Source of the DNA: Diprion similis
Lineage: Eukaryota > Arthropoda > Insecta > Hymenoptera > Diprionidae
Assembly (NCBI RefSeq): GCF_021155765.1
Contig: NC_060109.1
Coordinates: forward strand, 5,543,001-5,607,000
Length of the DNA: 64,000 nt
Direction: 5' to 3'
Shown here: positions 23,228 through 57,879 of the stretch, piece by piece
How positions within the stretch are numbered: position 1 is the first letter of the stretch
Layout: each line of letters begins with the position of its first letter
Notes under the pieces: model-generated
Told to the model about the DNA's origin: nothing
Seen by the model: only the letters and a program-made list of their open reading frames with translations
Databases searched by the model: none
Program-made: the position numbers and the translations under genes

Positions 23228-23477
23228 ATATATATATATATATATATGTCGTGACGAAAGGGTCTTCGCCGATTCTGAACACTTTCCAAATTATAATGAA
23301 AAAACGAATCTCTCACACCCTTTTCGCAAAAATACGTGTTTTTACTTATCTAGTCGACGGAGGAGTGAGCGAGGTTTGGTCACGGCGGAAATTATCGACG
23401 TACAGATCTGAGGTCGAATTTGTTTGGTCAATAACCCGGTCGAATAACTTTTGAGGCGGGCTTATTTGAATGGTACA
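23228..23477 (-). repeat. Gypsy-B 3' LTR, inner part
   Basis: Continues the LTR interrupted at 8830. It matches 48235-48475 with few changes (for example GAATGGTACA versus GAATAGTACA). On the minus strand it begins TGTACC. Confidence 0.9.
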
Positions 23478-25941: not shown

Positions 25942-26449
25942 TTCACGGCAAAATACTGGCTGCCAGAAAGAAAAAGACTCTGCAGACTATGCGAAGCAGA
26001 AAAAGAAACATTGGAGCATCTCGCAGGAAGATGCAGAGACATGGAAGGACAACCAGGAAAGATTGAAGATATAATCAGCGAAGATGGTAAAGGATTAAAA
26101 TGGGGAAGACTTTTAAAGAAAAAAAGGGAAGAAAAAGCTAAGAGAGACAGACAGCAATGGGAAAAAGAAGGTAACACCACAGAGGAAGAATAGAATCAAG
26201 GGAAAAGAAAGGCTGAGAAGGAAAGAAAAAAAGAGTAAACACAAAGTACAAATAAACATAGGTGCAATATATAAACAATTAAGAGAATAATCAATAGAGA
26301 TGTGACAAATAAAATAAGATTAGAATAAGTTAGAGATAAGAGGAGGGATGAGGAATTGTGAAGAACAAACAGAGATGGGGAAGATAAAATAGATATATGT
26401 ATATAATGTAACACCATATTGGTATGCAATAAAACACTACTACTACTAG
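25942..26449 (+). mobile_element. 5'-truncated LINE inserted in Gypsy-B RT
   Basis: A plus-strand fragment interrupts the RT region of Gypsy-B. Its first 250 bp encode the end of a LINE ORF2: CRLCEAEKETLEHLAGRC, a CxxC...H...C zinc motif typical of the C-terminus, then a charged tail ending in a stop at 26193. An AT-rich 3' UTR, AATAAA near 26429 and a short CTACTACTA tail follow. The tail resembles that of the larger LINE ending near 57850. No clear target duplication is visible. Confidence 0.75.
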
Positions 26450-27212
26450 ATTTTTCAAACTTTAAGCGAAAATTATAATAAATTAATCTTCCGAATATCA
26501 ACGATAAATGATTTAAATGGTCATCAAACGTCTCTGATGTAATCATTGAATCATCCACGTATGAAGTCAAAAAAGAATTCATATAATCACCTAACGCCAT
26601 GTTCATAGCACGAATGAAACCGCTACCTGCTGTTTTTAATCCAAAAGGTATGCGACAAAAGTGATAAAGCGATGTTCCGTGTAAGAAGGCAGTATATGGT
26701 CTAGATTCTTTATCCATGGGAATTTGCCAGTAACCACTTGACAGATTAGTAGTGCTCATGTACTTTATACCATCATATTTTTGCAAAATCTCATCAATTC
26801 GTGGAGGTGATTCGTTATCAGATTCAATAAATTTATTTAACTGTCGTGCATCTAAACAAACGCGAATTTTCCCGTTTGCCTTTATAATTATTCTCAACGG
26901 ATTTACATATGGACTTTGAAATCTTTCTATGATGCCTTCTTTTAACATGCTTTGGATTTCCTGATCTACTTCGCTTCGATATTTTAACGGTATTGGATAT
27001 GATTTACGTATATACGGCTTGTCCGTGTTCAATTTAATTTTATAACTGTATAAATTCGTACATCCTGGTGATTTTGAGAAAACTTGACGATGTTCAAATA
27101 GTACATTTAGTAAAGCAGATTTTTGATTTCCATCTATGGTCGTGAGCTCCCGCACGGATGATTGAGCTTCCATATAAAATTTTTGATCTTCTGTATTTAG
27201 ATCTTTTATCAA
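26450..27212 (-). pseudogene. Gypsy-B reverse transcriptase, 5' part
   Basis: RT fingers and palm of a Ty3/Gypsy element: IKANGKIRVCLDARQLN, then the STTNLSSGYWQIP block, the FGLKTAGSGF block and a YVDD catalytic box. It stops being Gypsy sequence after LKFEKS, where the LINE begins; the remaining downstream frame is antisense LINE. It is out of frame with the protease segment, the break being close to 27212. Confidence 0.85.
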
Positions 27213-28027
27213 GCTAACGTTAGCAACTTTTGAATAATCTCCGATCTTATTACGTTTTTATCCCCAGTAATAGTTTCACATTCAGTATTATCATTTGTAA
27301 GAAAATTTTCAGTATTCATATTAAAATCATCATTATCATTTGTTACAATATAATCAATTTCATTGTTATTTTCGATAGTTTCCGTATTTTCTTCAAACAA
27401 GTTATTCAGACTATCCTCTTCCTCAATCAATGCTACTTCAATCTTTTGTAAACTATTTATTGTTTTCAGCTCTTGATTTACACAAGATCCAAACTTATCC
27501 ATGAAAACTCCATCAAACGACACATATGCTGAATCCAGCCATCTGTCTTTGATACCAATCTTTTGTTCTCTATAACTAATATCCACATCGTTTTTCATAA
27601 GCCAATCCGCACCTAAAATAATACCGACATTCATGTTCGGTAGAACTAGAAAAATCGTTTCTATATCTAAATCCTGTATACGAAGGTTGAGAAATATTTG
27701 TTTCATTATATTAGTTTGTTTCTTTCCGATAGCCCCTAAAATTTTTATATTCGATATCGGTAATTCACATACATCGAATTTATTTTTGAGTTGCCAATAT
27801 AAATGCTGCGAAATACATGTCACCTGACTACCTGTATCTACACATCCGGAAACCATTTTTTCATATATTTTACACATAATTAACGGACTGTAAGCTTGTT
27901 TGTTGCATTTCGTTTCGATATCACGTTTCTCTCCATCCAAAATATTTATATCTAGATCCGGTACAAAATCCATAAAATCCGAACCCGATGACGGATCGTT
28001 TACCATCGAGTCGGTTACAAGTTTCAA
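27209..28027 (-). pseudogene. Gypsy-B protease region
   Basis: An aspartic protease with active-site DTGSQ and a downstream ILGADWL motif, followed by an acidic Asn/Glu-rich linker. The frame opens -1 relative to gag, just at the gag stop (28024-28026), as expected for a gag-pol frameshift. The first ATG lies 21 nt inside the open frame. This segment is itself open, but it is broken from RT by a frameshift. Confidence 0.8.
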
Positions 28028-28953
28028 TTCCGGATTTGACCCGATGTATGTTGATTATGATTACTGCTAACTCTTTGCTGAGTTGGAAAACCAGGTGGCG
28101 GAACGTAAATATTAGGCATTGTAAGTAGATAGGATATGAGAGTTCTGGATTCTAGTTCCAATTTCCGCCACCAGCCCCCCTATTCCTATAGGCCGGGGCG
28201 ACTGCAGCGCCGCTAGGGAGCAGGGGGGGGAGCGAGGGGGGAGCGAGGGGGGAGCGTGGGTGGCAGGGGGGGGGGGGGGTTCCTGTCGGGTCTTGTTCGG
28301 CAGCGAGAGGCTCTAGGTTAGATAACGCTAGACCACTTGAAAAAATTCCTGGAAATGCTGCCTCTCAGCTCATGCCGATCATAAACGCAGTGGGATAGGG
28401 ACACAAGAAGGAAATTAAAACCAGGCCAGAATATTTGGAAATGTGTTTATGCACAATTATGAACCATCGCAATAACCTTATGCAGAAATTTACCAAGCGG
28501 TTCAGTCTTGGCTAATCGTCGCAGAGTCGGATTCTCACCATCTGGGTGCAATAATTACTGACTGCTGCTACGTTTTCTCAAAAGCCTTTTCCCAAACAAC
28601 CCTTTTCGTCAGGTCCCATAAACACAAATCACCCGGTCAAGAGTCTAGGGATCAGAATTCATCGATATGCCGCTCGAAGCCGCTTTTCGCCAGCCGATTC
28701 TCCCACTGGGTATCTTCAACGTTTTTTTCACCGATAGGGGAGGGGTAGGCGTGTGCAGGCTCAGACGTGATTGACCACAATTTTTATCTTGGAAGCTGCT
28801 GCTGCTGCAGAACGCGAAGACCCCTCCCCCCCCCCCCCCCCCCCCCCCAGGATCCTTCGGCATAAGGGCAACACATCCATTGCAGACTCATCAGTCTTAC
28901 ACAACACGTGAAAGTGAAAAGTTCAGAATATCATCGTCACCAACGTCAAAGTT

Positions 28954-31900
28954 ATGGCCGCCGAAGCATACATGGGACTCGTCGAACAGATGGGGGAGGC
29001 GTACAATTTGTTGCGCGAGCAAACTCCCGGAGAAGGAAGTCACGATGTCTTTAATCAATGGATTGGTATTGGAGTGGCAAATATACAAGTTTTGCGAGAT
29101 ATTCTTCAACAGCCGAGAATGAGTGTGGGGGCGAAACAGCAAATCCAACATAAGATCTCCCTCATACAATCCTGGGTGGCAAAGATCCAGCAGCAACAGC
29201 GGCAGCATGGCCTGGTGACTGGCGGCAATATTGACAGTTCTGCGGGTGTACAGTGGGATGATGTCGATAGCGCTTTTGCTAACCGGATTCGCACCGGCAT
29301 TGTCACCAATCTTGGCCATAAGGATTTGGAGGTCTTTTTGAGCGATGCGCGGCAGATCATCGTCGGAAAATTGAAGCTGGCACAGCGTAATGAGGGGAAT
29401 GTGAAGGTCAACATGATATTGACATGCGAATTTGAACACGTCAAGCATGACGAGGTCGCTGTGGAAGTTAAAAGCTTCAATACATCCAACGTGACGATCC
29501 TCCCATCGAGTGATATAGACGGCTGGTTCGCGGACGCAAAGAACAAACTGCTCGTAAAGGTCGAAGATTTCGAACAATGCGATTCCGGCTGGAGTATGAT
29601 CGAGATTTTAAATATTGCCGTAAATATCAACCGATACCAGCCTCTCGCTGCAGGAGCTTCAACATTCGTTACGCTACCCATGGACATTCAACGCAAGAAG
29701 GCAGTGGTCAACGTCAAAAACGAGGATGAAAGATGTCTTCTGTGGGCCGTTACCGCAGCTCTCCACCCGGTCGACATCAATGTTAGCCAGATGCATAGCT
29801 ATCGCCGATATATTCGAGAGTTGGACTGCACAGGCATCAAATTCCCCGCTACTCTGCATGACGTGGAAAAGTTTGAGAAATTAAATAATTTGCGAATCAA
29901 TGTATATGCAATAGAATCCAAAACTTTTTCGCATCATGCAAAATCCGCAAAAAGCGTCATCGTACCAATTTATTTGAGTAAAAATTTGCATAGCGCAAAC
30001 GTTGACACGATTCATCTTCTAATGCTTGAAAGTAGTAATTGTGCCGAGCATGATATGAATCGCGAATTCACACCAAGATTCCACTTTGCTTGGATCAAAG
30101 ATCTCTCACGATTGGTTAGCAAACAATTGTCTCAACATAATGGCCAACTGTTTTTATGCGACAGATGCCTATGCCACTTCGCTGTGAAACACGCCTACGA
30201 CCACCATCGGCAGGATTGTATTATGTTGAATAAAGTGCGCATGGAATTTCCAAGATCTGAAGATTTAAATTTAAAGTTTAAAAATTTCAAAAACAAAGGC
30301 ACTGTCCCGTTTGTTGTTTACGCCGATCTCGAATGTATATTAAAATCCGAACCTGTAGACGAATTTCAAAACCATAAAACATATGAAATTCAAAAGCATA
30401 TCCCGCACAGTGTAGCATACAACGTACATTGCGCGTACGATGAGACCTTATCTGAGTTTCATGGTAAACGCGGCACCGATTGCATAGATTGGCTCATGCA
30501 GCAGCTTAAAGATTTATCGGTTAAAGTAGAGTCACGAATCAAAAATATAATTCCGATGGAGTCTCTGACCCAAGTGCAACGCGATCGTCACATGCGCGCG
30601 AAAAATTGTCATATCTGCGAAAAGCCGTTTACTCCGGAGGAGAAAAAGTGCCACGATCATTGCCACTTCACGGGTAAATATCGCGGTCCTGCGCATAATC
30701 GGTGTAATTTGAATTTCAGCGAGTCGCATACAATTCCAATAGTTTTCCACAATTTGTCCGGTTACGATTCACATTTTTTGATTAAATCCCTGGCCTTAAA
30801 TTTTCCCGGAGCGGTTACACTGCTACCCATAAATAAGGAAAAATATATATCCTTCACGAAGCAGGTTGATGGGACGATGATGCATTTGAGATTCATCGAT
30901 TCGTTTCGATTTATGGCTAGCAGTATTGATAAACTTTCTTCGTATTTAGGCGATGTCGATAAACGTATAACACGTCAATTTTACAATAATCCCGCGCAGT
31001 TCAGCTTGATGACCCGCAAAGGCGTATTTCCTTACGAATACGTCGATTGTTGGAAGAAACTCGACGAAACTCGATTACCTGCTAAGAATCATTTCTACTC
31101 GCACCTCTGCAATTCGAATATCACAGACGCCGATTATGAGCACGCTAAAAATGTTTGGGAAGAATTCCGTGTAGAGTCTTTGGGGGCCTATTCCGATTTA
31201 TATTTAAAGACTGATGTTTTGTTACTTGCTGATATTTTCGAAAATTTCCGGGTTAGCTGTTTTAAAACATACGATTTGGATCCGTTGCACTACTACACGG
31301 CGCCGGGGCTTGCTTTTGACGCGATGCTTAAACACACAAAGGTGAATTTACAACTTTTCGATGACCCCGAAATGGTTTTATTTATTGAAAGAGGCATTCG
31401 AGGTGGCGTAGCGCAATGTTCTAATCGACACGCTCGCGCCAATAACAGATTTATGGGCAAAGATTTTGATCCGAACAAGGTGGAATCGTATCTTATGTAT
31501 TTCGATGTGAACAATCTTTACGGTGCGGCTATGAGTGCACATTTACCAATCGACTCGTTCGAGTGGGAGCATGATCCTATCGATATAACAACCCATCCGG
31601 ACGATTCGCCGATCGGTTACATCCTGGAGGTCGACTTGGACTATCCTACAGAGCTCCACGAGGAACACAAAGACCTACCTCTCTGTCCGGAGCATTTCAC
31701 GCCGCCAGGTAGTAAAATCCCTAAACTCGCCACCACCCTTCTCCCCAAAACGAAGTATATACTACACTATAGAAATTTAAAGCAATGTCTGAGTTTAGGT
31801 TTGAAATTAGTCAAAGTGTATAGAGTTTTAAAGTTCGCACAATCTCCATGGCTCGAGCCTTACATCACGCTCAACACCAACATGCGCAAACAGTCCAGAA

Positions 31901-32730
31901 ACGAATTTGAGAAAAACTTTTACAAATTGATGAATAACGCTGTGTTTGGTAAGACTATGGAGAATGTGCGAAATCACACGGATGTCAAATTAGTTACAAA
32001 ATGGGAGGAAAGAGGTGGTGCGAGAGCGCTTATCGCTAGAGCAAACTTTCATAGTTGCACCGTATTCGAGACTGATATGGTTATTATAGAAATGAATCGC
32101 GTCAAAGTTTATTTTAATAAACCAATTTATATCGGTGCGGCGATTTTAGACCTATCAAAAATTATTCTGTACGATTTTCATTACAATTATATAAAGCCGA
32201 ATTTTCCCGACAAAAAAGCTAAACTGTTGTACACCGACACGGACAGCCTTATTTACCAATTTAATGTGCCCAACATCTACGATATCGTCAAACGTGATGT
32301 TGACTCAATGTTTGACACCTCGGACTACCCTCCCGACAATGTGTACGGTATTCCGCTTAAGAACAAGAAACGTTTGGGCATAATGAAGGACGAGAACAAC
32401 GGGAAAATTATGACAGAGTTCATTGGGTTGCGCGCGAAGCTGTACACCTTTACAACGATGGGCGAGGATGACGCCGATGGTACGAAAGTAAGCAAACGCG
32501 CAAAGGGTGTCAAGAATTCAACGCTGAACACCATCACGTTTGACGATTATAAGCGCTGCCTGTTGGCTTACAAGGAATTGGCTCGATCGCAATGTCTAAT
32601 TCGTAGCAAAAAACATCAAGTAAGCACTATCGTACAGAAGAAATTGGCTCTGAGTTGGCAAGATGACAAGCGGCAATTGATACCTGGGCAGACCGACAGC
32701 TTACCTTGGGGGTTTGCCGCTGCCCCATAA
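28954..32730 (+). CDS. polB: protein-primed type B DNA polymerase, left copy
   Basis: 1258 residues from an ATG. The 3'-5' exonuclease motifs are present: Exo I D458-x-E460, Exo II N600 and D605 (HNLSGYD) and Exo III Y750-xxx-D754. The polymerase motifs are A DVNNLYG (851-857), B K991-x-x-N994...G999 and C DTDS (1095-1098). The insert expected in protein-primed enzymes lies between A and B. A C402-x2-C405 zinc motif and an HNH/endonuclease VII-like cluster (C552-x2-C555, CHDHCH 566-571, N582-x-C584) precede Exo II. This is the Polinton/Maverick polymerase family, replicating linear DNA from a terminal protein. The frame is intact with every catalytic residue, so it may be active. The first 390 residues are not recognised. 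Confidence 0.93.
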
Positions 32731-32814
32731 GAGTGATCATAGGATTAGCTGTATGTATAAAACTGCCACGAATACTTACGTTCGACACCTTGGACGATCC
32801 TATGTCAAATCATT

Positions 32815-33245
32815 TATTCAAAAATGAAAAAAAGTTTTCAGGTAATGAAAAAAAGTTTTCCGGAAACAAAGATAAGTTTTCAGAAAACAAAATCCCCATT
32901 TGATTAACATGTAAAAAAAGTTTTCCGAATATAACAAAAAGTTTTCCAGAAACGAAAAAAAGTTTTCAGATAACGAAAAAAAGTTATCAGAGAATGAAAA
33001 AAAGTTTTCCGGAAACGAAGAAAAGTTTTCAGAAAACAAAATCCCCATTTGATTAACACGTAAAAAAAGTTTTATAGAAACGAAAAAAAGTTTTCAGAAA
33101 ATGAAAAAAAGTTTTCCGGAAAAGAAGGAAAGTTTTCGGAAAACAATATCCTCATTTGATTAACACGTAAAAAAAGTTTTCCTACTATGAAAAAAGGTTT
33201 TCCAGAGATGAAAAAAAAAGTTTCCAAAAATACACATGTGTATTA
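32815..33245 (-). repeat. AAAGTTTTC minisatellite, left arm
   Basis: Imperfect units of about 21-24 bp with the core AAAAAAGTTTTC(C/A) and GAAA alternate with a longer higher-order unit marked by CCCCATTTGATTAACACG. The same array recurs at 33950-34190 and, mirrored, in the right arm. It yields long phenylalanine-rich ORFs on one strand (FSENFF repeats), which I regard as a by-product. Confidence 0.8.
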
Positions 33246-33388
33246 GCCGGATGGAAAAAAATTCCTTGCATCATTATTATTACTGTTATCACGGATATGA
33301 TCTATATGTATACATGAAAAAGAATTGACGAAATATTTTGTATAACTGTATGTTTTATTGTTATTCTGGAGAATAAATACAAATTATG

Positions 33389-33639
33389 CTACACGTCTGT
33401 TTTATTTATCCAACTGTTGTGTGAACTGTCAAATCCCAACCACGTCTCATGGAGCTGAACCCCACGCTTGCGTAATACTTTTCCCACTAAGTAGCCATTG
33501 GGGTATTTAACGTTACTGAGTTCCTCCTTCTAGAAGCCTCCTCCGATGGGATGATCTTGATAATCGGTAAGTTTGTACGTCGATTGGTATTTTTCAAGTC
33601 GTTCACGGTGAATATTTCCGTTATCCACGTGGGCATAAA
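33389..33639 (-). pseudogene. integrase C-terminus with chromodomain, left arm, outer copy
   Basis: Mirror of 36865-37115. On the minus strand the piece begins WITEIFTVNDL and runs through the linker typical of Polinton integrases. It ends in a chromodomain-like segment (KVLRKRG ... ETWLGFDSSHNSWIN) and a stop. A small deletion shifts the frame before YKLTDYQDHPI, and a TAG interrupts GGFY. Only the C-terminal 80 or so residues survive; the DDE core is absent. It supports the Polinton identity of the element. Confidence 0.75.
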
Positions 33640-33949
33640 CATTAATTGCATAACATCGAATCATTTCACTTAATGCGATGCTACTTACACCGATCATCTG
33701 CTCATGAAAAGTACAAACCCACGCCAACGCTTATCATGTCCAACAGCCTCCCCCCCCCCCCCCCCCTCCCCCGAGACGTGCGGCCGAAATGCAGCGCGGG
33801 AATATGCAGATAAAAATTTATCAAGACACTTTACCAGAAAGGTCTCTACTCGGGAGGTTTTCCCGCCAAACACCGTAAAACTTCGTAACGTGGTTCTGCG
33901 CTGCCCGCCTTTCATCAAGTGATTTCTCCCTCCTAGCCACATTTGATTA

Positions 33950-34190
33950 ACACGTAAAAAAAGTTTTCCGAATATGAAAAAAAGTTTTCCAGAAACGAAA
34001 AAAAGTTTTCAGAGAATGAAAAAAAGTTTTCCGGAAACAAAGAAAAGTTTTCAGAAAACAAAATCTCCATTTGATTAACACGTAAAAAAAAAATTTCCGA
34101 GTATGAAAAAAAGTTTTCCTACTATGAAAAGTGGTTTTCCAGAAATGAAAAAAAAATTTCCAAAAATAAACATGTGTATTAACCGGATGG
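33950..34190 (-). repeat. second AAAGTTTTC minisatellite block, left arm
   Basis: Same unit as 32815-33245, with the CATTTGATTAACACG spacer. It follows a C-rich tract and a unique GC-richer stretch (33740-33940), suggesting that the block and the adjoining integrase piece duplicated together. Confidence 0.75.
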
Positions 34191-34214
34191 AAAAAAATTC
34201 CTCGCATCATTATA

Positions 34215-34369
34215 CGGTATTTTACGTCACTGAGTTCCTCCTTGTAGAAGCCTCCTTCGATGGGATGATCTTGATAATCGGTAAGTTTGTACGTCGGTGG
34301 ATTGGTATTTTTCAAGTCGTTCACGGTGAATATTTCCGTTATCCAATTGGGTGTATACATTAATTGCAT
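34215..34369 (-). pseudogene. integrase C-terminus, left arm, inner copy
   Basis: Mirror of 36136-36290. In one open frame it reads NWITEIFTVNDLKNTNPPTY, then KLTDYQDHPIEGGFYKEEL, the linker that precedes the chromodomain in Polinton integrases, then runs out into minisatellite. It is a diverged partial duplicate of the outer copy, lacking the chromodomain and the catalytic core. Confidence 0.75.
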
Positions 34370-34654
34370 AACATCTAATCATTTCACTTAATGCGATGCT
34401 ACTTACGCCGATCATCTGCTCATGAAAACTACTCTTTATCATCTCAATCCGCCAGCCTGTGGTGAAATTTTGAGTACGTGAAAAAATATAAATATCTAAA
34501 TAAATAAGCAAGAACATTGAAAAGTGCTCGAAAAAATCATTCTGCATGCTAGTTAAATAGGAAAATGCTGGAAAATGCTGGAAAATGCTGGAAAATGGGG
34601 AAAAAAATCGAAATGCAGAACAACCAACACAATCAGCTAAGCCGTTTATTTTAA

Positions 34655-35357
34655 CCCACAATATTAGGGGGTTCGGTAGGCTGAAAGAGCTAACTCCGAG
34701 TCAGGGGGCCTTTTAGCTACTGAACAGCAATGATCAGAAGTAATTCATACCTGGAGCAAGTCGGCACCTTACCTGCTATAAAATGTGTAGATATACCCGT
34801 TTGGCGCCTCGGGAAGTCCTTCTTCAGATCCAGACGCCACCCCTCCAAGGTCGTATTGAATGGATCGAAGTTTCAAATATACGATTTCACATTTTATGTA
34901 TTGAGCAATTAATACATATTCAAACAATGGGAGCGGGAACATCCAAACCAGCATCCATGACGTCATATGCTCAAGCGATTGATAGGGGAGTTCAGACTCA
35001 AGCACGTTTTCCGAGCAGCATAGCCAACGTGATAACCAAAAATCATAGTTATAATGATTATATATATACGATTTGAAACGGCTACAGAAAAATTTCCATG
35101 AGATGAAAAAAAAAAAAATTTCAATGGTTGCAATTGTTGCAAATACCTACTCACAATCCTCGATAAATTTTCCAAGTATGCATCGGCGGGATTGATAGAT
35201 ATGAGCCAAGAGCGTGAAAGATGTAGCTGTAGACATAAAATTAATTCAACCCACAATATTGGAGGGTTCGGCAGGCTGAAAGATCTTACTCCAAGTCAGG
35301 GGGGGGGGGGGGGTCATTCCTGGACCAGATCGACACCTTACCTGCTGTGAACTGTGA
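34655..35357 (+). repeat. direct repeat of about 110-140 bp near palindrome centre
   Basis: ACCCACAATATT, then GGGTTCGG(T/C)AGGCTGAAAG, an ACTCC(G/A)AGTCAGGGGG block and CGGCACCTTACCTGCT/CGACACCTTACCTGCT, occur at 34655-34797 and again at 35247-35357, about 590 bp apart. In the right arm the two copies are brought close by the 390 bp deletion. Confidence 0.65.
34927..35076 (+). CDS. 49-residue ORF with N-myristoylation-like start
   Basis: Begins MGAGTSKPASM, matching the MGxxxS/T pattern of N-myristoylated proteins, and stops after 49 codons. It lies in the stretch present only in the left arm; the matching part of the right arm is deleted. It might be the beginning of another viral-type gene cut off by formation of the palindrome, or chance. 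No homology is claimed. Confidence 0.25.
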   Translation: MGAGTSKPASMTSYAQAIDRGVQTQARFPSSIANVITKNHSYNDYIYTI

Positions 35358-35415
35358 TAAATCCCGGTAAAACAAGGACGCAAAACTGAGTTTTTTACCT
35401 CAAGTATTTATAATA

Positions 35416-35478
35416 CTCGTCTTCGTCTCACATATGCATACTTGCCTCCGGCTCGTATGCGTGCTCACCTACGACTCA
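35416..35478. other. 63 nt loop at the palindrome centre
   Basis: Unpaired spacer between the arms. The adjoining stem (35341-35415 with 35479-35553) is nearly perfect. The loop contains a small 6 bp inner stem, GCATAC (35436-35441) with GTATGC (35455-35460). Confidence 0.8.
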
Positions 35479-36135
35479 TATTATAAATACTTGAGGTAAA
35501 AAACTTAGTTTTGCGTCCTTGTTTTACCGGGATTTATCACAGTTCACAGCAGGTAAGGTGTCGATCTGGTCCAGGAATGACCCCCCCCCCCCTGACTTGG
35601 AGTAAGATCTTATAGTAAAATCGTATATTTGAAACTTCGATCCATTCAATACGACCTTGGAGGGGTGGCGTCTGGATCTGAAGAAGGACTTCCCGAGGCG
35701 CCAAACGGGTATATCTACACATTTTATAGCAGGTAAGGTGCCGACTTGCTCCAGGTATGAATTACTTCTGATCATTGCTGTTCAGTAGCTAAAAGGCCCC
35801 CTGACTCGGAGTTAGCTCTTTCAGCCTACCGAACCCCCTAATATTGTGGGTTAAAATAAACGGCTTAGCTGATTGTGTTGGTTGTTCTGCATTTCGATTT
35901 TTTTCCCCATTTTCCAGCATTTTCCAGCATTTTCCAGCATTTTCCTATTTAACTAGCATGCAGAATGATTTTTTCGAGCACTTTTCAATGTTCTTGCTTA
36001 TTTATTTAGATATTTATATTTTTTCACGTACTCAAAATTTCACCACAGGCTGGCGGATTGAGATGATAAAGAGTAGTTTTCATGAGCAGATGATCGGCGT
36101 AAGTAGCATCGCATTAAGTGAAATGATTAGATGTT

Positions 36136-36290
36136 ATGCAATTAATGTATACACCCAATTGGATAACGGAAATATTCACCGTGAACGACTTGAAAAATAC
36201 CAATCCACCGACGTACAAACTTACCGATTATCAAGATCATCCCATCGAAGGAGGCTTCTACAAGGAGGAACTCAGTGACGTAAAATACCG
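36136..36290 (+). pseudogene. integrase C-terminus, right arm, inner copy
   Basis: The plus-strand partner of 34215-34369, with the same linker motif (TDYQDHPIEGGFY) and the same run-out into minisatellite. No catalytic core. Confidence 0.75.
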
Positions 36291-36329
36291 TATAATGATG
36301 CGAGGAATTTTTTTCCATCCGGTTAATAC

Positions 36330-36575
36330 ACATGTTTATTTTTGGAAATTTTTTTTTCATTTCTGGAAAACCACTTTTCATAGTAGGAAAACTTTTTTTC
36401 ATACTCGGAAATTTTTTTTTTACGTGTTAATCAAATGGAGATTTTGTTTTCTGAAAACTTTTCTTTGTTTCCGGAAAACTTTTTTTCATTCTCTGAAAAC
36501 TTTTTTTCGTTTCTGGAAAACTTTTTTTCATATTCGGAAAACTTTTTTTACGTGTTAATCAAATGTGGCTAGGAG
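36330..36575 (+). repeat. AAAGTTTTC minisatellite block, right arm (inner)
   Basis: Mirror of 33950-34190, read here as GAAAACTTTTTTTC units with CGTGTTAATCAAATG spacers. Confidence 0.75.
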
Positions 36576-36864
36576 GGAGAAATCACTTGATGAAAGGCGG
36601 GCAGCGCAGAACCACGTTACGAAGTTTTACGGTGTTTGGCGGGAAAACCTCCCGAGTAGAGACCTTTCTGGTAAAGTGTCTTGATAAATTTTTATCTGCA
36701 TATTCCCGCGCTGCATTTCGGCCGCACGTCTCGGGGGAGGGGGGGGGGGGGGGGAGGCTGTTGGACATGATAAGCGTTGGCGTGGGTTTGTACTTTTCAT
36801 GAGCAGATGATCGGTGTAAGTAGCATCGCATTAAGTGAAATGATTCGATGTTATGCAATTAATG

Positions 36865-37115
36865 TTTATGCCCACGTGGATAACGGAAATATTCACCGTG
36901 AACGACTTGAAAAATACCAATCGACGTACAAACTTACCGATTATCAAGATCATCCCATCGGAGGAGGCTTCTAGAAGGAGGAACTCAGTAACGTTAAATA
37001 CCCCAATGGCTACTTAGTGGGAAAAGTATTACGCAAGCGTGGGGTTCAGCTCCATGAGACGTGGTTGGGATTTGACAGTTCACACAACAGTTGGATAAAT
37101 AAAACAGACGTGTAG
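36865..37115 (+). pseudogene. integrase C-terminus with chromodomain, right arm, outer copy
   Basis: The plus-strand partner of 33389-33639, with the same frameshift and the same internal TAG, so these lesions predate the palindrome or were copied between arms. It ends in the WLGFDSSHNSWIN chromodomain box and TAG at 37113-37115. Confidence 0.75.
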
Positions 37116-37257
37116 CATAATTTGTATTTATTCTCCAGAATAACAATAAAACATACAGTTATACAAAATATTTCGTCAATTCTTTTTCATGTATACATAT
37201 AGATCATATCCGTGATAACAGTAATAATAATGATGCAAGGAATTTTTTTCCATCCGG

Positions 37258-37690
37258 CTAATACACATGTGTATTTTTGGAAACTTTTTTTTTCATCTCT
37301 GGAAAACCTTTTTTCATAGTAGGAAAACTTTTTTTACGTGTTAATCAAATGAGGATATTGTTTTCCGAAAACTTTCCTTCTTTTCCGGAAAACTTTTTTT
37401 CATTTTCTGAAAACTTTTTTTCGTTTCTATAAAACTTTTTTTACGTGTTAATCAAATGGGGATTTTGTTTTCTGAAAACTTTTCTTCGTTTCCGGAAAAC
37501 TTTTTTTCATTCTCTGATAACTTTTTTTCGTTATCTGAAAACTTTTTTTCGTTTCTGGAAAACTTTTTGTTATATTCGGAAAACTTTTTTTACATGTTAA
37601 TCAAATGGGGATTTTGTTTTCTGAAAACTTATCTTTGTTTCCGGAAAACTTTTTTTCATTACCTGAAAACTTTTTTTCATTTTTGAATAA
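37258..37690 (+). repeat. AAAGTTTTC minisatellite block, right arm (outer)
   Basis: Mirror of 32815-33245, adjoining the 3' end of the right-arm polB gene. Confidence 0.8.
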
Positions 37691-37773
37691 ATGATTTGAC
37701 ATAGGATCGTCCAAGGTGTCGAACGTAAGTATTCGTGGCAGTTTTATACATACAGCTAATCCTATGATCACTC

Positions 37774-40700
37774 TTATGGGGCAGCGGCAAACCCCCAAGG
37801 TAAGCTGTCGGTCTGCCCAGGTATCAATTGCCGCTTGTCATCTTGCCAACTCAGAGCCAATTTCTTCTGTACGATAGTGCTTACTTGATGTTTTTTGCTA
37901 CGAATTAGACATTGCGATCGAGCCAATTCCTTGTAAGCCAACAGGCAGCGCTTATAATCGTCAAACGTGATGGTGTTCAGCGTTGAATTCTTGACACCCT
38001 TTGCGCGTTTGCTTACTTTCGTACCATCGGCGTCATCCTCGCCCATCGTTGTAAAGGTGTACAGCTTCGCGCGCAACCCAATGAACTCTGTCATAATTTT
38101 CCCGTTGTTCTCGTCCTTCATTATGCCCAAACGTTTCTTGTTCTTAAGCGGAATACCGTACACATTGTCGGGAGGGTAGTCCGAGGTGTCAAACATTGAG
38201 TCAACATCACGTTTGACGATATCGTAGATGTTGGGCACATTAAATTGGTAAATAAGGCTGTCCGTGTCGGTGTACAACAGTTTAGCTTTTTTGTCGGGAA
38301 AATTCGGCTTTATATAATTGTAATGAAAATCGTACAGAATAATTTTTGATAGGTCTAAAATCGCCGCACCGATATAAATTGGTTTATTAAAATAAACTTT
38401 GACGCGATTCATTTCTATAATAACCATATCAGTCTCGAATACGGTGCAACTATGAAAGTTTGCTCTAGCGATAAGCGCTCTCGCACCACCTCTTTCCTCC
38501 CATTTTGTAACTAATTTGACATCCGTGTGATTTCGCACATTCTCCATAGTCTTACCAAACACAGCGTTATTCATCAATTTGTAAAAGTTTTTCTCAAATT
38601 CGTTTCTGGACTGTTTGCGCATGTTGGTGTTGAGCGTGATGTAAGGCTCGAGCCATGGAGATTGTGCGAACTTTAAAACTCTATACACTTTGACTAATTT
38701 CAAACCTAAACTCAGACATTGCTTTAAATTTCTATAGTGTAGTATATACTTCGTTTTGGGGAGAAGGGTGGTGGCGAGTTTAGGGATTTTACTACCTGGC
38801 GGCGTGAAATGCTCCGGACAGAGAGGTAGGTCTTTGTGTTCCTCGTGGAGCTCTGTAGGATAGTCCAAGTCGACCTCCAGGATGTAACCGATCGGCGAAT
38901 CGTCCGGATGGGTTGTTATATCGATAGGATCATGCTCCCACTCGAACGAGTCGATTGGTAAATGTGCACTCATAGCCGCACCGTAAAGATTGTTCACATC
39001 GAAATACATAAGATACGATTCCACCTTGTTCGGATCAAAATCTTCGCCCATAAATCTGTTATTGGCGCGAGCGTGTCGATTAGAACATTGCGCTACGCCA
39101 CCTCGAATGCCTCTTTCAATAAATAAAACCATTTCGGGGTCATCGAAAAGTTGTAAATTCACCTTTGTGTGTTTAAGCATCGCGTCAAAAGCAAGCCCCG
39201 GCGCCGTGTAGTAGTGCAACGGATCCAAATCGTATGTTTTAAAACAGCTAACCCGGAAATTTTCGAAAATATCAGCAAGTAACAAAACATCAGTCTTTAA
39301 ATATAAATCGGAATAGGCCCCCAAAGACTCTACACGGAATTCTTCCCAAACATTTTTAGCGTGCTCATAATCGGCGTCTGTGATATTCGAATTGCAGAGG
39401 TGCGAGTAGAAATGATTCTTAGCAGGTAATCGAGTTTCGTCGAGTTTCTTCCAACAATCGACGTATTCGTAAGGAAATACGCCTTTGCGGGTCATCAAGC
39501 TGAACTGCGCGGGATTATTGTAAAATTGACGTGTTATACGTTTATCGACATCGCCTAAATACGAAGAAAGTTTATCAATACTGCTAGCCATAAATCGAAA
39601 CGAATCGATGAATCTCAAATGCATCATCGTCCCATCAACCTGCTTCGTGAAGGATATATATTTTTCCTTATTTATGGGTAGCAGTGTAACCGCTCCGGGA
39701 AAATTTAAGGCCAGGGATTTAATCAAAAAATGTGAATCGTAACCGGACAAATTGTGGAAAACTATTGGAATTGTATGCGACTCGCTGAAATTCAAATTAC
39801 ACCGATTATGCGCAGGACCGCGATATTTACCCGTGAAGTGGCAATGATCGTGGCACTTTTTCTCCTCCGGAGTAAACGGCTTTTCGCAGATATGACAATT
39901 TTTCGCGCGCATGTGACGATCGCGTTGCACTTGGGTCAGAGACTCCATCGGAATTATATTTTTGATTCGTGACTCTACTTTAACCGATAAATCTTTAAGC
40001 TGCTGCATGAGCCAATCTATGCAATCGGTGCCGCGTTTACCATGAAACTCAGATAAGGTCTCATCGTACGCGCAATGTACGTTGTATGCTACACTGTGCG
40101 GGATATGCTTTTGAATTTCATATGTTTTATGGTTTTGAAATTCGTCTACAGGTTCGGATTTTAATATACATTCGAGATCGGCGTAAACAACAAACGGGAC
40201 AGTGCCTTTGTTTTTGAAATTTTTAAACTTTAAATTTAAATCTTCAGATCTTGGAAATTCCATGCGCACTTTATTCAACATAATACAATCCTGCCGATGG
40301 TGGTCGTAGGCGTGTTTCACAGCGAAGTGGCATAGGCATCTGTCGCATAAAAACAGTTGGCCATTATGTTGAGACAATTGTTTGCTAACCAATCGTGAGA
40401 GATCTTTGATCCAAGCAAAGTGGAATCTTGGTGTGAATTCGCGATTCATATCATGCTCGGCACAATTACTACTTTCAAGCATTAGAAGATGAATCGTGTC
40501 AACGTTTGCGCTATGCAAATTTTTACTCAAATAAATTGGTACGATGACGCTTTTTGCGGATTTTGCATGATGCGAAAAAGTTTTGGATTCTATTGCATAT
40601 ACATTGATTCGCAAATTATTTAATTTCTCAAACTTTTCCACGTCATGCAGAGTAGCGGGGAATTTGATGCCTGTGCAGTCCAACTCTCGAATATATCGGC

Positions 40701-41550
40701 GATAGCTATGCATCTGGCTAACATTGATGTCGACCGGGTGGAGAGCTGCGGTAACGGCCCACAGAAGACATCTTTCATCCTCGTTTTTGACGTTGACCAC
40801 TGCCTTCTTGCGTTGAATGTCCATGGGTAGCGTAACGAATGTTGAAGCTCCTGCAGCGAGAGGCTGGTATCGGTTGATATTTACGGCAATATTTAAAATC
40901 TCGATCATACTCCAGCCGGAATCGCATTGTTCGAAATCTTCGACCTTTACGAGCAGTTTGTTCTTTGCGTCCGCGAACCAGCCGTCTATATCACTCGATG
41001 GGAGGATCGTCACGTTGGATGTATTGAAGCTTTTAACTTCCACAGCGACCTCGTCATGCTTGACGTGTTCAAATTCGCATGTCAATATCATGTTGACCTT
41101 CACATTCCCCTCATTACGCTGTGCCAGCTTCAATTTTCCGACGATGATCTGCCGCGCATCGCTCAAAAAGACCTCCAAATCCTTATGGCCAAGATTGGTG
41201 ACAATGCCGGTGCGAATCCGGTTAGCAAAAGCGCTATCGACATCATCCCACTGTACACCCGCAGAACTGTCAATATTGCCGCCAGTCACCAGGCCATGCT
41301 GCCGCTGTTGCTGCTGGATCTTTGCCACCCAGGATTGTATGAGGGAGATCTTATGTTGGATTTGCTGTTTCGCCCCCACACTCATTCTCGGCTGTTGAAG
41401 AATATCTCGCAAAACTTGTATATTTGCCACTCCAATACCAATCCATTGATTAAAGACATCGTGACTTCCTTCTCCGGGAGTTTGCTCGCGCAACAAATTG
41501 TACGCCTCCCCCATCTGTTCGACGAGTCCCATGTATGCTTCGGCGGCCAT
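37774..41550 (-). CDS. polB: protein-primed type B DNA polymerase, right copy
   Basis: Same 1258-residue protein as the left copy, with one visible residue difference, K836 in the left copy being E in this one. All exonuclease and polymerase motifs are intact (Exo I-III, DVNNLYG, DTDS). The two genes converge towards the centre of the palindrome, each starting about 830 bp from its tip. Two open, near-identical copies imply recent formation of the palindrome, or gene conversion between arms. Confidence 0.93.
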
Positions 41551-42383
41551 AACTTTGACGTTGGTGACGATGATATTCTGAACTTTTCACTTTCACGTGT
41601 TGTGTAAGACTGATGAGTCTGCAATGGATGTGTTGCCCTTATGCCGAAGGATCCTGGGGGGGGGGGGGGGGGGGGGGGGAGGGGTCTTCGCGTTCTGCAG
41701 CAGCAGCAGCTTCCAAGATAAAAATTGTGGTCAATCACGTCTGAGCCTGCACACGCCTACCCCTCCCCTATCGGTGAAAAAAACGTTGAAGATACCCAGT
41801 GGGAGAATCGGCTGGCGAAAAGCGGCTTCGAGCGGCATATCGATGAATTCTGATCCCTAGACTCTTGACCGGGTGATTTGTGTTTATGGGACCTGACGAA
41901 AAGGGTTGTTTGGGAAAAGGCTTTTGAGAAAACGTAGCAGCAGTCAGTAATTATTGCACCCAGATGGTGAGAATCCGACTCTGCGACGATTAGCCAAGAC
42001 TGAACCGCTTGGTAAATTTCTGCATAAGGTTATTGCGATGGTTCATAATTGTGCATAAACACATTTCCAAATATTCTGGCCTGGTTTTAATTTCCTTCTT
42101 GTGTCCCTATCCCACTGCGTTTATGATCGGCATGAGCTGAGAGGCAGCATTTCCAGGAATTTTTTCAAGTGGTCTAGCGTTATCTAACCTAGAGCCTCTC
42201 GCTGCCGAACAAGACCCGACAGGAACCCCCCCCCCCCCTGCCACCCACGCTTCCCCCTCGCTCCCCCCTCGCTCCCCCCCCTCCTCCCTAGCGGCGCTGC
42301 AGTCGCCCCGGCCTATAGGAATAGGGGGGCTGGTGGCGGAAATTGGAACTAGAATCCAGAACTCTCATATCCTATCTACTATT

Positions 42384-43134
42384 GGAAAGCTAAACCCATT
42401 GTTTCGATTATTTCTATTATAATACTGGTGACTATTCTTATCTTGTTTTCGATTATATCTAACGTCCATCTGTTGAACATTGTAAGATTGTTGAGAATTT
42501 ACGTGGTTATCCTTTTTCTCTAATTCTTTTTCTTCATCAATTAAGTCTAAATCAGATAAAGTTTGCAATATAGAATCGGACTCTTTGATTCCTGCTAATT
42601 TTGTTCTAACTCCTATTGGCATTTGACTGATAATAAGTGAATTTTTTCCCATTCTCCAGCATGTTTCATAATAATTTTGGCTTCGGTAGATTTTTTCAGA
42701 AAATATGTTCGCAAAGAACCGTCTTGATAGCTGTATCTACTATTATTCCAATTTCTTCTAAGCTTTATTTGTTGATCGACAGAGTAAAATTGTTGTTTAA
42801 ATTGTTCTTCAAACGACTCAAAATTTTGAAATGTACTTCGTGAATTTTCGAACCATGCTTTTGCGCGTCCTTTAACTGCTGTCCCAACAACTGATAATTT
42901 TAAATCATCTGGTACAAATTTAAGTCTAAAATAATCTTTCAAGTCACGCAAAAAATCAAATGGATTATTGTCCTTTTCCTCTTGAAAAATCGGGATACTA
43001 ACATCTATCGAAAAATTGTTATTTGAAACTTGTATCGGTCTGGTGTTACTTGTCACATTATTTGCGTGTTGTCCGGTTAAATGACTTTCCACGTGATGCG
43101 TCAATTCTCGTATTTTCTTTTGCATCTCCTCCAA
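42384..43134 (-). pseudogene. Gypsy-B Gag (C-terminal end at 28123-28024)
   Basis: A retrotransposon gag domain: a PFDFLRDLKDYFRLKF segment, AVKGRAKAWFENSR, then FEEQFKQQFYS. The first ATG is at 43125, but the open frame extends upstream to 43134 and beyond towards the Mutator-like element, which may have removed the true start. A frameshift near 42650 separates two frames (43134-42613 and 42652-42365). The Polinton derivative interrupts the C-terminus after NNGFSFP. The frame resumes at 28123 with PNIYVPPPGFP and stops at 28024, in phase once the insertion and one target copy are discounted. No CCHC knuckle is seen. Confidence 0.85.
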
Positions 43135-47825: not shown

Positions 47826-48475
47826 TGTAACGGATTACTCTCCTTACTGTTTTTAAATATTAATAAGAATAAAAAAAAAAAAATAACATAAAAATGAATA
47901 AATAAATACTAATGGCTGAAGTCTCTATTTATGACGTGTTTATAAAGGTGTGAAAATGGTGTAAAAGTAAAAGATGTAAAATAAAATAAATAGAGATGTA
48001 TAAATTGAAAAACAAAAAGGTATATAATAAAATAAATGTAGATGTAAAAATAAAACAAATAAATAAATAAACATTAAATAAATATAGACGTAAAAATAAA
48101 ACTTATCCTTAAAATGGCCAATAATTATGTCTCGTTGTTTTCCACTTATAACAATTTGAATCTTCGTCTTTGTACCTCGCTCCTCTCTTATTTAAAAACA
48201 GATGACCTGTGTGGTTTCGTAGTCTTTTTTTATATATATATATATATCGTGACGAAAGGATCTTCGCCGATTCTGAACACTTTCCAAATTATAATGAAAA
48301 AACGTATCTCTCACACCCTTTTCGCAAAAATACGTGTTCTTACTTATCTAGTCGACGGAGGAGTGAGCGAGGTTTGGTCACGGCGGAAATTATCGACGTA
48401 CAGATCTGAGGTCGAATTTGTTTGGTCAATAACCTGGTCGAATAACTTTTGAGGCGGGCTTATTTGAATAGTACA
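47826..48475 (-). repeat. Gypsy-B 5' LTR
   Basis: 650 bp, from TGTACTATTC to CCGTTACA on the minus strand, flanked by GAAT at 48476-48479. It is complete, unlike the split 3' LTR. The two differ by indels and scattered substitutions, so the insertion is clearly older than Gypsy-A. Confidence 0.9.
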
Positions 48476-53934: not shown

Positions 53935-54054
53935 AGTCCCGATTAACAGATTTCACTATTTCAAAATATGTAGTATCAATATCGCCTAGAAAATGCATGT
54001 GTGCTCGGGAAATTCAAAGAATTTATCATTATTATTATTATTATCATTACCAGA

Positions 54055-57000
54055 TTTTTGTTTTCGGTTTGGATGTGAGTGGCAGGTGTGTAGAAGAGTG
54101 CGAATAGTGAGGTGGAAGTAAGTAGGGTAGCAAGGGCGAGGAGGGAGAGAAATAGGGTTGGGAGGGTGCGAGAAAGAGCAGGAAGGGCTGGGTGGTGAAG
54201 GAAATAGGGGGGCCAAAAAAAGGAGCGAAGGACAGGTGAAGAAAGGGTTGGAAGTTTGAGGTTAGGTAGCGGAAACTAGCGGCTGGCAGGGGAGTAAGGC
54301 AACGGAGAAGAGAAGGTGACGACATCTAGGGAGTAGGAAAGGGGGTAGAGTAGAGACAGGAAAGTGATGGGTGGATAAGGTAGGGAGCAGCCGAGCGAAA
54401 GTAAATAAGTGAGGCGGGTGGTCAGGAAGGAGGGGCAAAGAGAGTAGAAGAAGAGAAAAGGAAAGGTAGGCCGAGTGCAGTAACATTAATAGGAAGGAAA
54501 AGGAACCATAGTTTAGGATCAGTGATGACGGTGACAGGATCTGCTAAGAGTAATTAGGGAGGAGTAAAAGATAGGGTTAGAAGAAGTTAAAGGGCAGGGA
54601 ATGGGGTTCTGGGGAAAAATGGTCAAGATCAAACGGGAAATGAGGAGAAGGGAAGGACAATGAGAAGTAGAAAGGAGGAAGATGAAGGGAGAAATGAGGG
54701 ACCTGGGTAAGAGGCTAGAGGCAGTAGAAAAGCGGGGCGGAGGGGAAATGGAAAAGGTAAAGGAAAGGCTGGCAAAATTAGAAAAGGAACGTGTAGAATG
54801 CGGGGCGAAAAGACGGGGAAAGGGGGACACAGGAATGGTGCAGATAGCAATAGAGAGGCTAAAAAAGGTGGAATGGACGTTAGAGAGGAAAGAAAGGGAA
54901 GAAGGAAGGGAAAATATAGTAGTGAGAGAAGCAAGAATGGAGAAGGGAAAGAAAAAGAAAAGGTTGCAAAGGATTATGTAGGTAATAGGGTTAGAGATTA
55001 AGGTAAAATATATGTGGTAGGTAGCTGCGAATGGGGGAGGCGGGGGAGGGAGAAAAAGGGATATGGATAGCAAGGTTGGGGAACAGGGAACAAAAGAGGC
55101 AGGTAATGGAAAGGAAAAGCCGCCTTAGAGAAAGGTGAGAGAGAATAGAGGAGGATCTCACCTGGGCAGAGAGGAAACTGAAAAGAGGGAAAAGGGAGTT
55201 AATAAAAAGGGTCTGGACAGAGGAGGGCAGGCAGAGGTTCAGAAGAGACGTAAAATGGGAGGTCGTAGAGGAAGCGGATGTAGAAAAAGAGATAGAGGAA
55301 AGAATAAGGGAGTTTAGGAGAGCGATGGAGGCAGGAGGGACAGGGGGGTAAGGGGAAAAAGGGTTGGTGGGATGAGAAATGTAGGAGAAAGAAAGTAGAA
55401 GTTACGGAAAGTCTAAGAGAGTGGAGAAAGCGGGATGGGGAAGGGAAAAGATATAGAAGGGAAAGAAAAGAATATAATAGGCTATGCGAGGAGAAAAAAA
55501 GGAAAGAGAATGATGGCTTCATAAAAGAACCCGCTGAAGCAAAAACGGAAAGCAAGGTATGGGAAATAGCAAATAGGGAAAGAAAGAAGTAGAAGTGGGT
55601 AAATAAGGCAATAAGTGATAAGGAGTGGAGGGGGTATTTCATAGGACTATTAGGTGGAGTGGAGAGCAGGGTAACAGGGGGCGGGGGGAAGGCAAGCAGG
55701 GAGGGGGACGGGGATGGGGAGCTACAGAGAGAAGAGATCAGAAAGGCGGTAGGAAGGCTGAGGGATGGAAAGGCACCACGAGGGGATGGAATAGTTAGTG
55801 AGGTATGAAGATATGGGGGGGAACAAATGGAGCAATGGGTATAGAAAGTATGTAATAGAATATGGATGGGAGAGGGTTGGCCGGATGAGTGGAGAGAGGG
55901 ATGAATAGCACCAACAGTGAAGAAGAGGGAGTGAAGAAGGGTGAAAGAGTACAGGGGGGTAACGCTGATGCCAACTTTGTATAAGATCTACGCGATGGTG
56001 TTAGTGGATGGCTTAGAGAGGGAAGTAGAGGAGAAGCGAATAATACCTCATAATCAGACGGGTCTTAGGAAAGAGATCGACAATGTATACGTGCTCAATT
56101 ATCTAATTATTAGGCAGGTGGGAAGGGACAAGGGCAAGATGGCGGCGTTCTTTGTTGACCTAAAGGCGGCGTTCGATTCGGTGGACAGAAAGGTGCTGTG
56201 GGAGGCTATGGAAAGGAGAGGGGTAAGGGTAGGGTTAAGGGCAAGAGTAAAGAAGATCTACAAGGAAACGAAGAGTAAGGTGAGGAGCGGGGAAAGGTAG
56301 AAGAAGTGTTCTGGACGGCGAGGGGGTGATGCAAGGTTGCCTGCTCAGTCGGCACCCATTTAATCTGCTGCTGGCGGATGTGGCAGAGGATATGGGCAGA
56401 GGGAGAATGGTAGAGGGACTGGTGTTGACTGGACGCAGGGTCTGGACATGAGCATATGCCGACGACATGGTGTTACTAGCAGAGCGGGAAGAGGATGTGG
56501 AAATAATGATTAGAAAGTTAGAAAAGTATATGGATAGGAAAAGGTTGATAGTAAATGTAGGGAAATCGAAGATCATGAGATTCAGGAAAGGGGGTGGCAG
56601 GAAGAAAAAAGTGGATTGGAGATGGAAAGGTAAAGAGATAGAGGAGGTGAAAGAGTTTTGTTACCTGAGGTATACGGTAAAGTGTACGGGGGGACAGGAA
56701 GTGCACGTGAAAGAGAGAGTGCGGAAAGCAGGGGTAGTAATGAGGCAGGTATGGGGAATAGGAAAAAGAAGGTTTGGGAGGGATTGGGAGAAAAGTATTT
56801 GGCTATTTGACAGGCTAGTGTGGACGGTTATTGAATATGCAGCGGAGGTATGGTGGTGGAGGGAGTGGGGAATGGTTGAGGCGGTACAGGATAGATTTTT
56901 AAGATGGATATGAGGAGTGGATTGGCAAACACCGGGGTATTTAGTCAGGGAAGAACTTTGAAAGGAAGCTGGAGAGAGGGGACGGTAGCGAGTGAGCTAG

Positions 57001-57850
57001 GAGATGCTGGGAAGAGGTAAGGAAAATGGTCGAAGCGGCGAAACAAGGATCGAGATGGGAAGGAGAAAAGAAGGTTTCTTTGCGAAAAAGGGAGAGGAGG
57101 GGAGAGAGGCAGTCGGGAGGAGGGAGAGAGGGAAACTGGAATTTAGGGAGTTAGAGGACAGAGAAAGGGAGGAGCAGAGGAAAGAGAGATGGGCGAAAAT
57201 AGGGGAATCTAGGTACAGCAGATGGTTTAGGATAGTAAAAGGAGAAGGGATACCAGGGTATCTAGGAAAGGGCTGGGGAAAAGTAAGTGGAAAAGGGTTG
57301 CGAGATTCAGGTTAGGAAGCAAAGTATTGGAAGATAGAGGAAAAGAAAAGGTGTAGGGTGTGTGAGGGGGGGGGGGGGGCGTGGGAGCGCGTTTGGAAAG
57401 GTACGTAGGTTGGGATAGAAGGGAGGAGAGCTGGCAGAAGGTAGCGAGGGAGATGTTAGGGGTGAAGGCGGAGGGGGAAGTTTGGATAAGAGAACTGGAA
57501 AGGATCAGAGATGTGAGAGAAAAGGGAAGAATGAGAGATGAATTGAAAACGGAAGCCGAGTAGGACAAGAAAGGATAGCAATAGCATAAGGTAAAATAAG
57601 TTAAGGTTATGTGAATTAAGGGCAAAGATGTAACGGAAGAATAAGAAGTGAAGTGAGAGGATTGGCAAGGCAATGCACAGGGCGCGGGCAGGTAGAGAAT
57701 AAGTAATGATAAGGTGGGATGTAAAGATAGGATAAGAAGAGGATAAGAAATAGGGTAAGACAATATGTAAAATTGTATGTGAAAGGAGAGGGAAATGGGA
57801 GCCTTTGTAAACCCAAGGGGAACAATAAATATGACTACTACTACTACTAC
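54055..57850 (+). mobile_element. decayed LINE retrotransposon of nearly full length
   Basis: Purine-rich plus-strand sequence with broken reading frames and a trinucleotide tail (AATAAATATG, then repeated ACT) ending near 57850. Left of it (54026-54050) and right of it (57850-57880) are similar ATT-rich microsatellites that could be the target. A coiled, Lys/Glu-rich region (54680-55000) precedes the RT remnants. The tail resembles that of the short LINE at 25942-26449, suggesting the same family. Confidence 0.7.
55941..56913 (+). pseudogene. LINE reverse transcriptase remnants
   Basis: The frame 55941-56300 carries YRGVTLMPTLYKIYA, QTGLRKE and FFVDLKAAFDSVDR, standard RT blocks of non-LTR elements. 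A frameshift follows, then YADD at 56455-56466, continuing as MVLLAEREEDVE and KYMDRKRLIVNVGKSKIM to 56913. Stops flank and separate the pieces. A Cys-containing C-terminal region is recognisable near 57340-57560. Non-functional. Confidence 0.8.
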
Positions 57851-57879
57851 TATTATCATTATTATTATTTTACTTTTGT

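Follow-up and report, generated by a model that had tools for sequence, protein, structure and literature searches.

We analyzed a 64,000-nt stretch of the sawfly Diprion similis genome (the window; C5:5543001-5607000, in an assembly with 60 contigs and 269 Mb), in which a mirrored, Polinton-derived element lies at positions 28124-42380. Alignment of one half of the element to the other showed a near-perfect palindrome with AG...CT tips, and a chance origin of its 7-kb inverted repeat is excluded. An earlier note, made from the sequence alone, had called the element perfectly mirrored; the inverted repeat itself was recovered (arms of 7,292 and 6,902 nt around a 63-nt loop) but the mirror is only near-perfect, the arms differing by seven mismatches, four small indels (1-3 nt) and a stretch of 386 nt that is deleted from the right arm. 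The outermost sequences are AGTAGATAGG...CCTATCTACT, with ATTGTA bordering the left end and ATTGGA the right, in agreement with the AG tips and the near-perfect 6-bp target duplication (5/6) that the note had described. The features of the element, in window coordinates, are as follows.

28118-28123: target site duplication, left copy ATTGTA, identical to the empty site
28124-35415, plus strand: left arm, 7,292 nt, from the inverted-repeat alignment
28954-32730, plus strand: polB frame of the left arm, intact, 1,258 aa
32817-33217, plus strand: 21-nt tandem repeats behind polB, left arm; second block at 33956-34167
33314-33580, minus strand: C-terminal integrase remnant, outer copy, left arm
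33812-33936, plus strand: 125-nt segment, 83-84% identical to a stretch just upstream of polB in three full Polintons of this genome
34202-34369, minus strand: C-terminal integrase tail, inner copy, left arm
34432-35415, plus strand: centre-proximal sequence
35416-35478, no strand: central loop, non-palindromic, 63 nt
35479-42380, minus strand: right arm, 6,902 nt, without the 386 nt that the left arm has from about 34890
36136-36303, plus strand: integrase tail, inner copy, right arm
37287-37682, minus strand: 21-nt tandem repeats behind polB, right arm; second block at 36344-36549
37774-41550, minus strand: polB frame of the right arm, intact, 1,258 aa, one base different from the left copy
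42381-42386: target site duplication, right copy ATTGGA, one substitution

Each arm carries an intact polB frame, as expected of the Polinton derivative with one polB per arm that the note had proposed. DNA_pol_B_2 (PF03175) matched both arms at 107 bits in a six-frame search; the polB protein searched alone gave no PF03175 match, and its close homologues are found in insect genomes. The protein contains the stretches YADLE, DVNNLY and YTDTDS, which we take to be exonuclease and polymerase motifs, and an Endonuclease VII-like stretch. The integrase tail that the note had recognized is also present, and in the mirrored copies the integrase is a C-terminal remnant of about 51 aa only, compared to frames of up to 357 aa, ending in the same tail, in the full Polintons of the same genome (the parents, below). 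Because the integrase is only a remnant, we regard the mirrored element as a non-autonomous derivative and not as a full Polinton. None of five further frames in the arms matched a Pfam family above the cut-off, protease and packaging ATPase families included. The mirrored arm is not a plain copy of one parent end, since it contains the integrase tail twice with the 125-nt segment from upstream of polB in between.

We searched the genome with a 777-nt tip query and obtained at least 43 matches, 40 of them main matches (only the best candidates were scored and all these counts are lower bounds), of which at least 28 form 14 facing pairs. The window element was designated E1, and E1-E11 are the elements with both arms read, that is, the window element and ten others. 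All 11 of these elements, out of the 14 tip pairs, are mirrored, and the same loop occurs in eight of them. The loop aligned in nine copies (E1, C14:959k, E2, E15, E5, E6, E10, E11 and E4) with 89-100% identity to that of E1; it is present in E7 too, divided between two sequence pieces, and in E2 it is doubled around a 34-nt inverted stub. The tip pairs without an obvious later insertion span 13.4-15.0 kb in E1, E7, E8, E9 and E15, and spans of 9.1-12.5 kb were found for E3, E4, E10, E12 and E13. Greater lengths (18-29 kb) were found for E2, E5, E6 and E11, in which one arm is at least in part interrupted by extra sequence that we take as later insertions; E14, the widest tip pair at 36 kb, may not be a single element. 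Further copies were recognized by their integrase tails and centre sequence, some of them apparently single-armed.

Target duplications were recognized in 11 of 14 mirrored-type elements with edges read, a set that includes E12, E15 and C14:2441620, whose mirrored type was judged by their tip pairs, integrase tails and matches to the centre and not by comparison of arms. Six duplications match at 6/6 positions (E2, E4, E9, E10, E15 and C14:2441620) and five at 5/6 (E1, E5, E7, E11 and E12), E7 reaching this score only on the assumption of a substitution in the final base of its right tip. The search for mirrored copies with the same centre, which the note had suggested, was successful, and the 11 mirrored copies at separate sites support its guess of a recurrent, mobile form, as do the 6-bp duplications. 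The shared loop and the duplications that bound whole palindromes show that the family spread as a palindromic unit; the mirrored copies, 11 at separate sites and eight with the same loop, are not dead-end products. We favor, with good though not full confidence, the reading that these elements are a mobile, mirror-image Polinton family that derives from one founder, spread as a palindrome, and had its arms homogenized after insertion.

The note had also pointed to a parent Polinton carrying the same tip as something to look for, and nine tip pairs of such parents were found. They span 13,762-14,540 nt, are unmirrored and have the same tips as the mirrored elements; two further tip pairs from the same search, E15 and C14:2441620-2451791, are of the mirrored type. 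The parent at C2:2407826-2422146 (14,321 nt by its tip pair, the sequence being examined as two separate pieces) has a single polB (PF03175, 104 bits), an integrase (rve, with a chromo match slightly below the cut-off), a Pox_A32-type ATPase and a double jelly-roll capsid protein (402 bits), as well as a protein with a domain that resembles phospholipase A2; no protease was recognized there. A genome search with the capsid family PF21738 gave 127 matches, one of them in each of the nine parent spans (9/9) and none in the 15 mirrored-type spans (E1-E13, E15 and C14:2441620); the wide E14 span contains one. Among seven parents checked for duplications, five have 6/6, one has 5/6 and one has none. 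The complete length of the window element is close to that of a full Polinton. According to a study of vertebrate Mavericks, these elements have 6-bp duplications, AG-type end motifs such as (AG)3 and (AGT)2, and about 10% variation in size, which suggests a constrained size (PMC8097293). The similar sizes of mirrored elements and parents fit a packaging limit, without showing one.

Polinton and mirrored copies are clustered on C2, C3, C4, C5, C12, C13 and C14, for example in C14 0-5 Mb, C12 0-2 Mb and C2 0-4 Mb, and these regions are possibly heterochromatin. The region C13:10893386-10946651 contains two mirrored-type half elements that have identical scores, face in opposite directions and are separated by about 50 kb; they may mark a large inverted duplication with element centres as its borders.

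In polB trees the left and right arms of an element are sisters in 11 of 11 cases. Divergence of the polB stretch between the arms of one element is 0-0.43% in ten of the 11 and 5.8% in E6, compared to 1.05-9.3% between elements. The presence of a homologous loop in copies throughout the genome makes a single origin of the mirror, followed by inheritance, the most likely course, and the protein tree described below points the same way. Such a single mirror could also have been made in the chromosome, by ectopic recombination or deletion between two inverted Polintons whose product then spread. The numerous and clustered Polintons of this genome would have offered the opportunity, and the internal duplications within the arms are in keeping with such a history, but the 63-nt central spacer and the doubled loop of E2 look more like strand switching. 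These features are not decisive, and we consider a chromosomal origin of the mirror unlikely.

We examined polB for signs of selection in ten mirrored copies (E6 was excluded), counting only codons at which both arms agree. Changes shared by at least two of the copies comprise 69 silent, 21 replacement and no stop changes, whereas those private to one copy comprise 104 silent, 203 replacement and nine stop changes; under neutrality, this gene would be expected to show 3.0 replacement changes for every silent one. Inside the clade of E1-E5, E9 and L001, the shared changes are 17 silent and eight replacement, again with no stop. A stricter count in the same ten copies, which additionally requires agreement among E6, the parents, L001 and L003, left 172 private changes present in both arms (39 silent, 126 replacement and seven stop), and eight single-arm changes. 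The shared changes thus indicate purifying selection on polB along the branches common to the mirrored copies. The two spectra indicate that polB mattered during the spread of the family and decayed after each landing.

When a copy has a private change, even a stop or a frame break, its two arms almost always carry it in identical form. Lesions increase with the length of the private branch (rho 0.86, p 0.003, nine copies; E3 and E6 excluded, clustered frame breaks counted as one). In the eight copies that have a duplication and both arms read, we counted four duplication mismatches, compared to 0.03 predicted from arm divergence (P ~4e-8) and 1.6 predicted from private branch length (P 0.09). 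The target duplications are therefore older than the arms look, suggesting that the near-identity of the arms was maintained after insertion. E9 (C14:721551-736226; L039, L040) preserves a direct trace: its left side begins with about 45 nt of the old left tip, which adjoins a GAATTG duplication without mismatch, and continues with 154/154 nt of the inverted right host flank and a full arm. The arrangement is explained if, within the chromosome, the right side was copied over the left. Homogenization by gene conversion or break-induced copying is shown in this one copy and is supported statistically in the set. In E6, where one arm is interrupted by other sequence, the arms have drifted to 5.8%. 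Arm identity was rejected as proof of a recent snap-back on the strength of the private stops in both arms, the duplication mismatches and the copied flank of E9. The note's own account, in which the window element is itself a snap-back genome that was then integrated, is accordingly not the best view, the loop being homologous genome-wide and the arms having been homogenized later.

We also evaluated an extension of the note's mechanism, namely that the arms were identical before insertion, each copy coming from a fresh round of snap-back or hairpin formation and copies with a broken polB being mobilized in trans. A strand switch would directly yield perfect arms, the doubled loop of E2 around its inverted stub resembles an extra turn-around, and two stop positions recur among the copies. 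The excess of duplication mismatches is hard to reconcile with copies as young as their arms look, and the host flank of E9 can have been copied only in a chromosome. Moreover, each of the remaining stop positions is confined to a single copy, and stops would be shared if broken copies had spread. Identity before insertion is disfavored as the sole cause, and we regard this account as improbable.

The site of the window element was examined next to an empty site at C12:1592341-1592518, where 178/178 nt of a query made from the joined flanks aligned with 97% identity. The empty site reads ATTGTA at the target, and hence it was the right copy of the duplication that mutated later. Both flanks are two parts of a single gypsy retrotransposon with long terminal repeats (LTRs) of 245 nt that are 97.6% identical.

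23233-23477: left LTR of the gypsy that hosts the insertion
26196-28027, minus strand: gypsy protease and reverse transcriptase frames, left flank
42613-43134, minus strand: gypsy gag-like frame, right flank, with an Arc_capsid_dom match below the cut-off
48231-48475: right LTR of the gypsy that hosts the insertion, 97.6% identical to the left LTR

As one gypsy surrounds the element, an assembly join of two separate elements is disfavored, as it is by the empty site and the recurrence of the structure at other sites. Long palindromes are hard to assemble, and fold-back reads or polishing might have created or perfected the palindromes. Against such an artefact stand the recurrence of one loop at unrelated sites, the single gypsy, the empty site and the duplications that adjoin the outer tips; differences between arms also persist (the seven mismatches and the 386-nt deletion of E1, the 5.8% of E6), and fold-back would have mirrored the flanks too. 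We consider an artefact very improbable. Hardly credible is a foldback-type transposon with a mechanism unrelated to Polintons, which the long arms, 21-nt tandem repeats and short loop might suggest but which is contradicted by the Polinton tips, the 6-bp duplications, the Polinton-type polB, the integrase remnant and the parents with the same tips.

A few results weigh against a mirrored family with one founder and later homogenization. Twelve of the 40 main tip matches are unpaired, and the evidence comes from one genome only. The centre search did not show the loop in E3, E8 and E9, nor did loop comparison show it in E8 and E9; E9 has a different centre, whose sequence is mirrored over some 0.6 kb around a spacer of roughly 2 kb. 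No recognizable duplication was found at E3, E6 and E8, three of the 14 elements with edges read. In polB trees built with a recombinant block included, the parents were nested among the mirrored copies with 34-68% support. We traced this nesting to 40 sites, all of them within a 235-bp block (about window 29619-29853, in polB) common to the parents, E10 and L003, and read the block as a probable recombination between mirrored and parent genomes. With the block removed, the mirrored rows formed one clade against the parents with 90% support in a rooted protein tree of six mirrored-type rows, four parents and three outgroups, in which L003 counts as mirrored-type by its integrase tail only; nesting of the parents within the mirrored copies was rejected on this result. 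The private changes have a replacement-to-silent ratio of 1.95, below the neutral 3.0 (p 0.0004) and thus short of fully neutral, suggesting that part of the private branches was selected. Two stops are recurrent, one position being shared by E5 and a parent and another by E9 and one arm of E6. Over-correction by the assembler may underlie part of the arm identity, which is known from the assembly alone. Finally, the mirror of E8 (C12:1632735-1652145; L055, L037, L038, L056) extends about 2.2 kb beyond both tips with 99.6% identity over 1,887 nt, perhaps by a larger event of the same kind as in E9.

The mirrored flank of E8 is related to window positions 4899-6095 and 8826-9782, and the mirror ends there. 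Elsewhere in the window, about 4 kb at 54001-58000 show an extreme GC skew (+0.57 to +0.68) and a positive AT skew.

Our best guess for the founder of the mirrored family is snap-back of a protein-primed genome. A polymerase copying the linear, protein-primed genome of a Polinton would have turned back to copy its own strand at a point within or close to the integrase gene, and the result would be one genome end in dimeric form. The product would retain both tips and its own polymerase and could replicate, while the integrase, and perhaps also the capsids, would be supplied in trans by full Polintons. Once in a chromosome, the arms overwrite each other and remain near-identical while both decay, as seen directly in E9 and statistically in the set. 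The palindrome, the 63-nt loop and the integrase truncation fit a strand-switch product. A centre query (from 34900, including the loop) gave no parental copy, as none of the 104 matches listed falls in the nine parent spans. The selection on polB suggests replication by the element's own enzyme, and the type of polB suggests that this replication is protein-primed. Integration was probably by a helper integrase, because the element's own integrase is lost and its AG-type ends (AGTAG... at each end) are identical to those of the parents. We tentatively raise the further possibility, somewhat short of an even chance, that the palindrome is a stable genome form: a polB-only satellite whose length is held by packaging, with 7-kb hairpin half-genomes, polB acting in cis, and helper integrase and capsids. 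In such a satellite, polB would be kept in cis if the polymerase or the terminal protein serves the DNA to which it is bound.

If the proposed history is true, a diversified, inserted palindromic family with a selected polB would mean that a palindromic genome can be a heritable lifestyle. It would also be evidence from evolution that Polinton biology includes a strand-switching step, and would make available a natural pair of helper and satellite within an animal genome. The mirrored copies are palindromes in which gene conversion after insertion is measurable, and they carry a warning that the identity of arms or of long terminal inverted repeats is unsafe as an age for a mirrored element. 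We found no description of a mirrored Polinton in a limited literature search, which does not show that none is in print. The 22 pattern matches among viral contigs (IMG/VR) include no relative of the element, and solved structures gave no useful match.

The closest known systems are the Polinton/Maverick elements (adintovirus-like) of the same genome, such as the parent at C2:2407826-2422146. They share with the mirrored elements the tips (AGTAGATAGGATAT), the 6-bp duplications, a polB stretch about 93% identical in DNA and a similar total length (13.8-14.5 kb), and differ in being unmirrored, in having a capsid match (9/9) and, in the one parent read, in having a single polB, a full integrase, an ATPase and a phospholipase-A2-domain protein. 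Foldback transposons (FB/Galileo) likewise have very long inverted arms, tandem repeats and a small middle, but their enzymes, tips and duplications are different. The arms of long chromosomal palindromes such as those of the human Y are likewise kept near-identical by copying of one onto the other, whereas conversion in the sawfly affects transposon copies, whose duplications and private stops allow it to be timed. To our knowledge, palindromic genomes of protein-primed replicons are known only as defective products. The palindromic derivatives of yeast protein-primed linear plasmids are likewise mirror dimers around a former internal site, but they are cytoplasmic and non-integrating, and we know of no diversified family of them. 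The symmetric palindromic defective genomes of adenoviruses are likewise protein-primed, with one end duplicated around a short centre; they are products of infection, whereas the sawfly palindrome was inserted, inherited and spread as a family.

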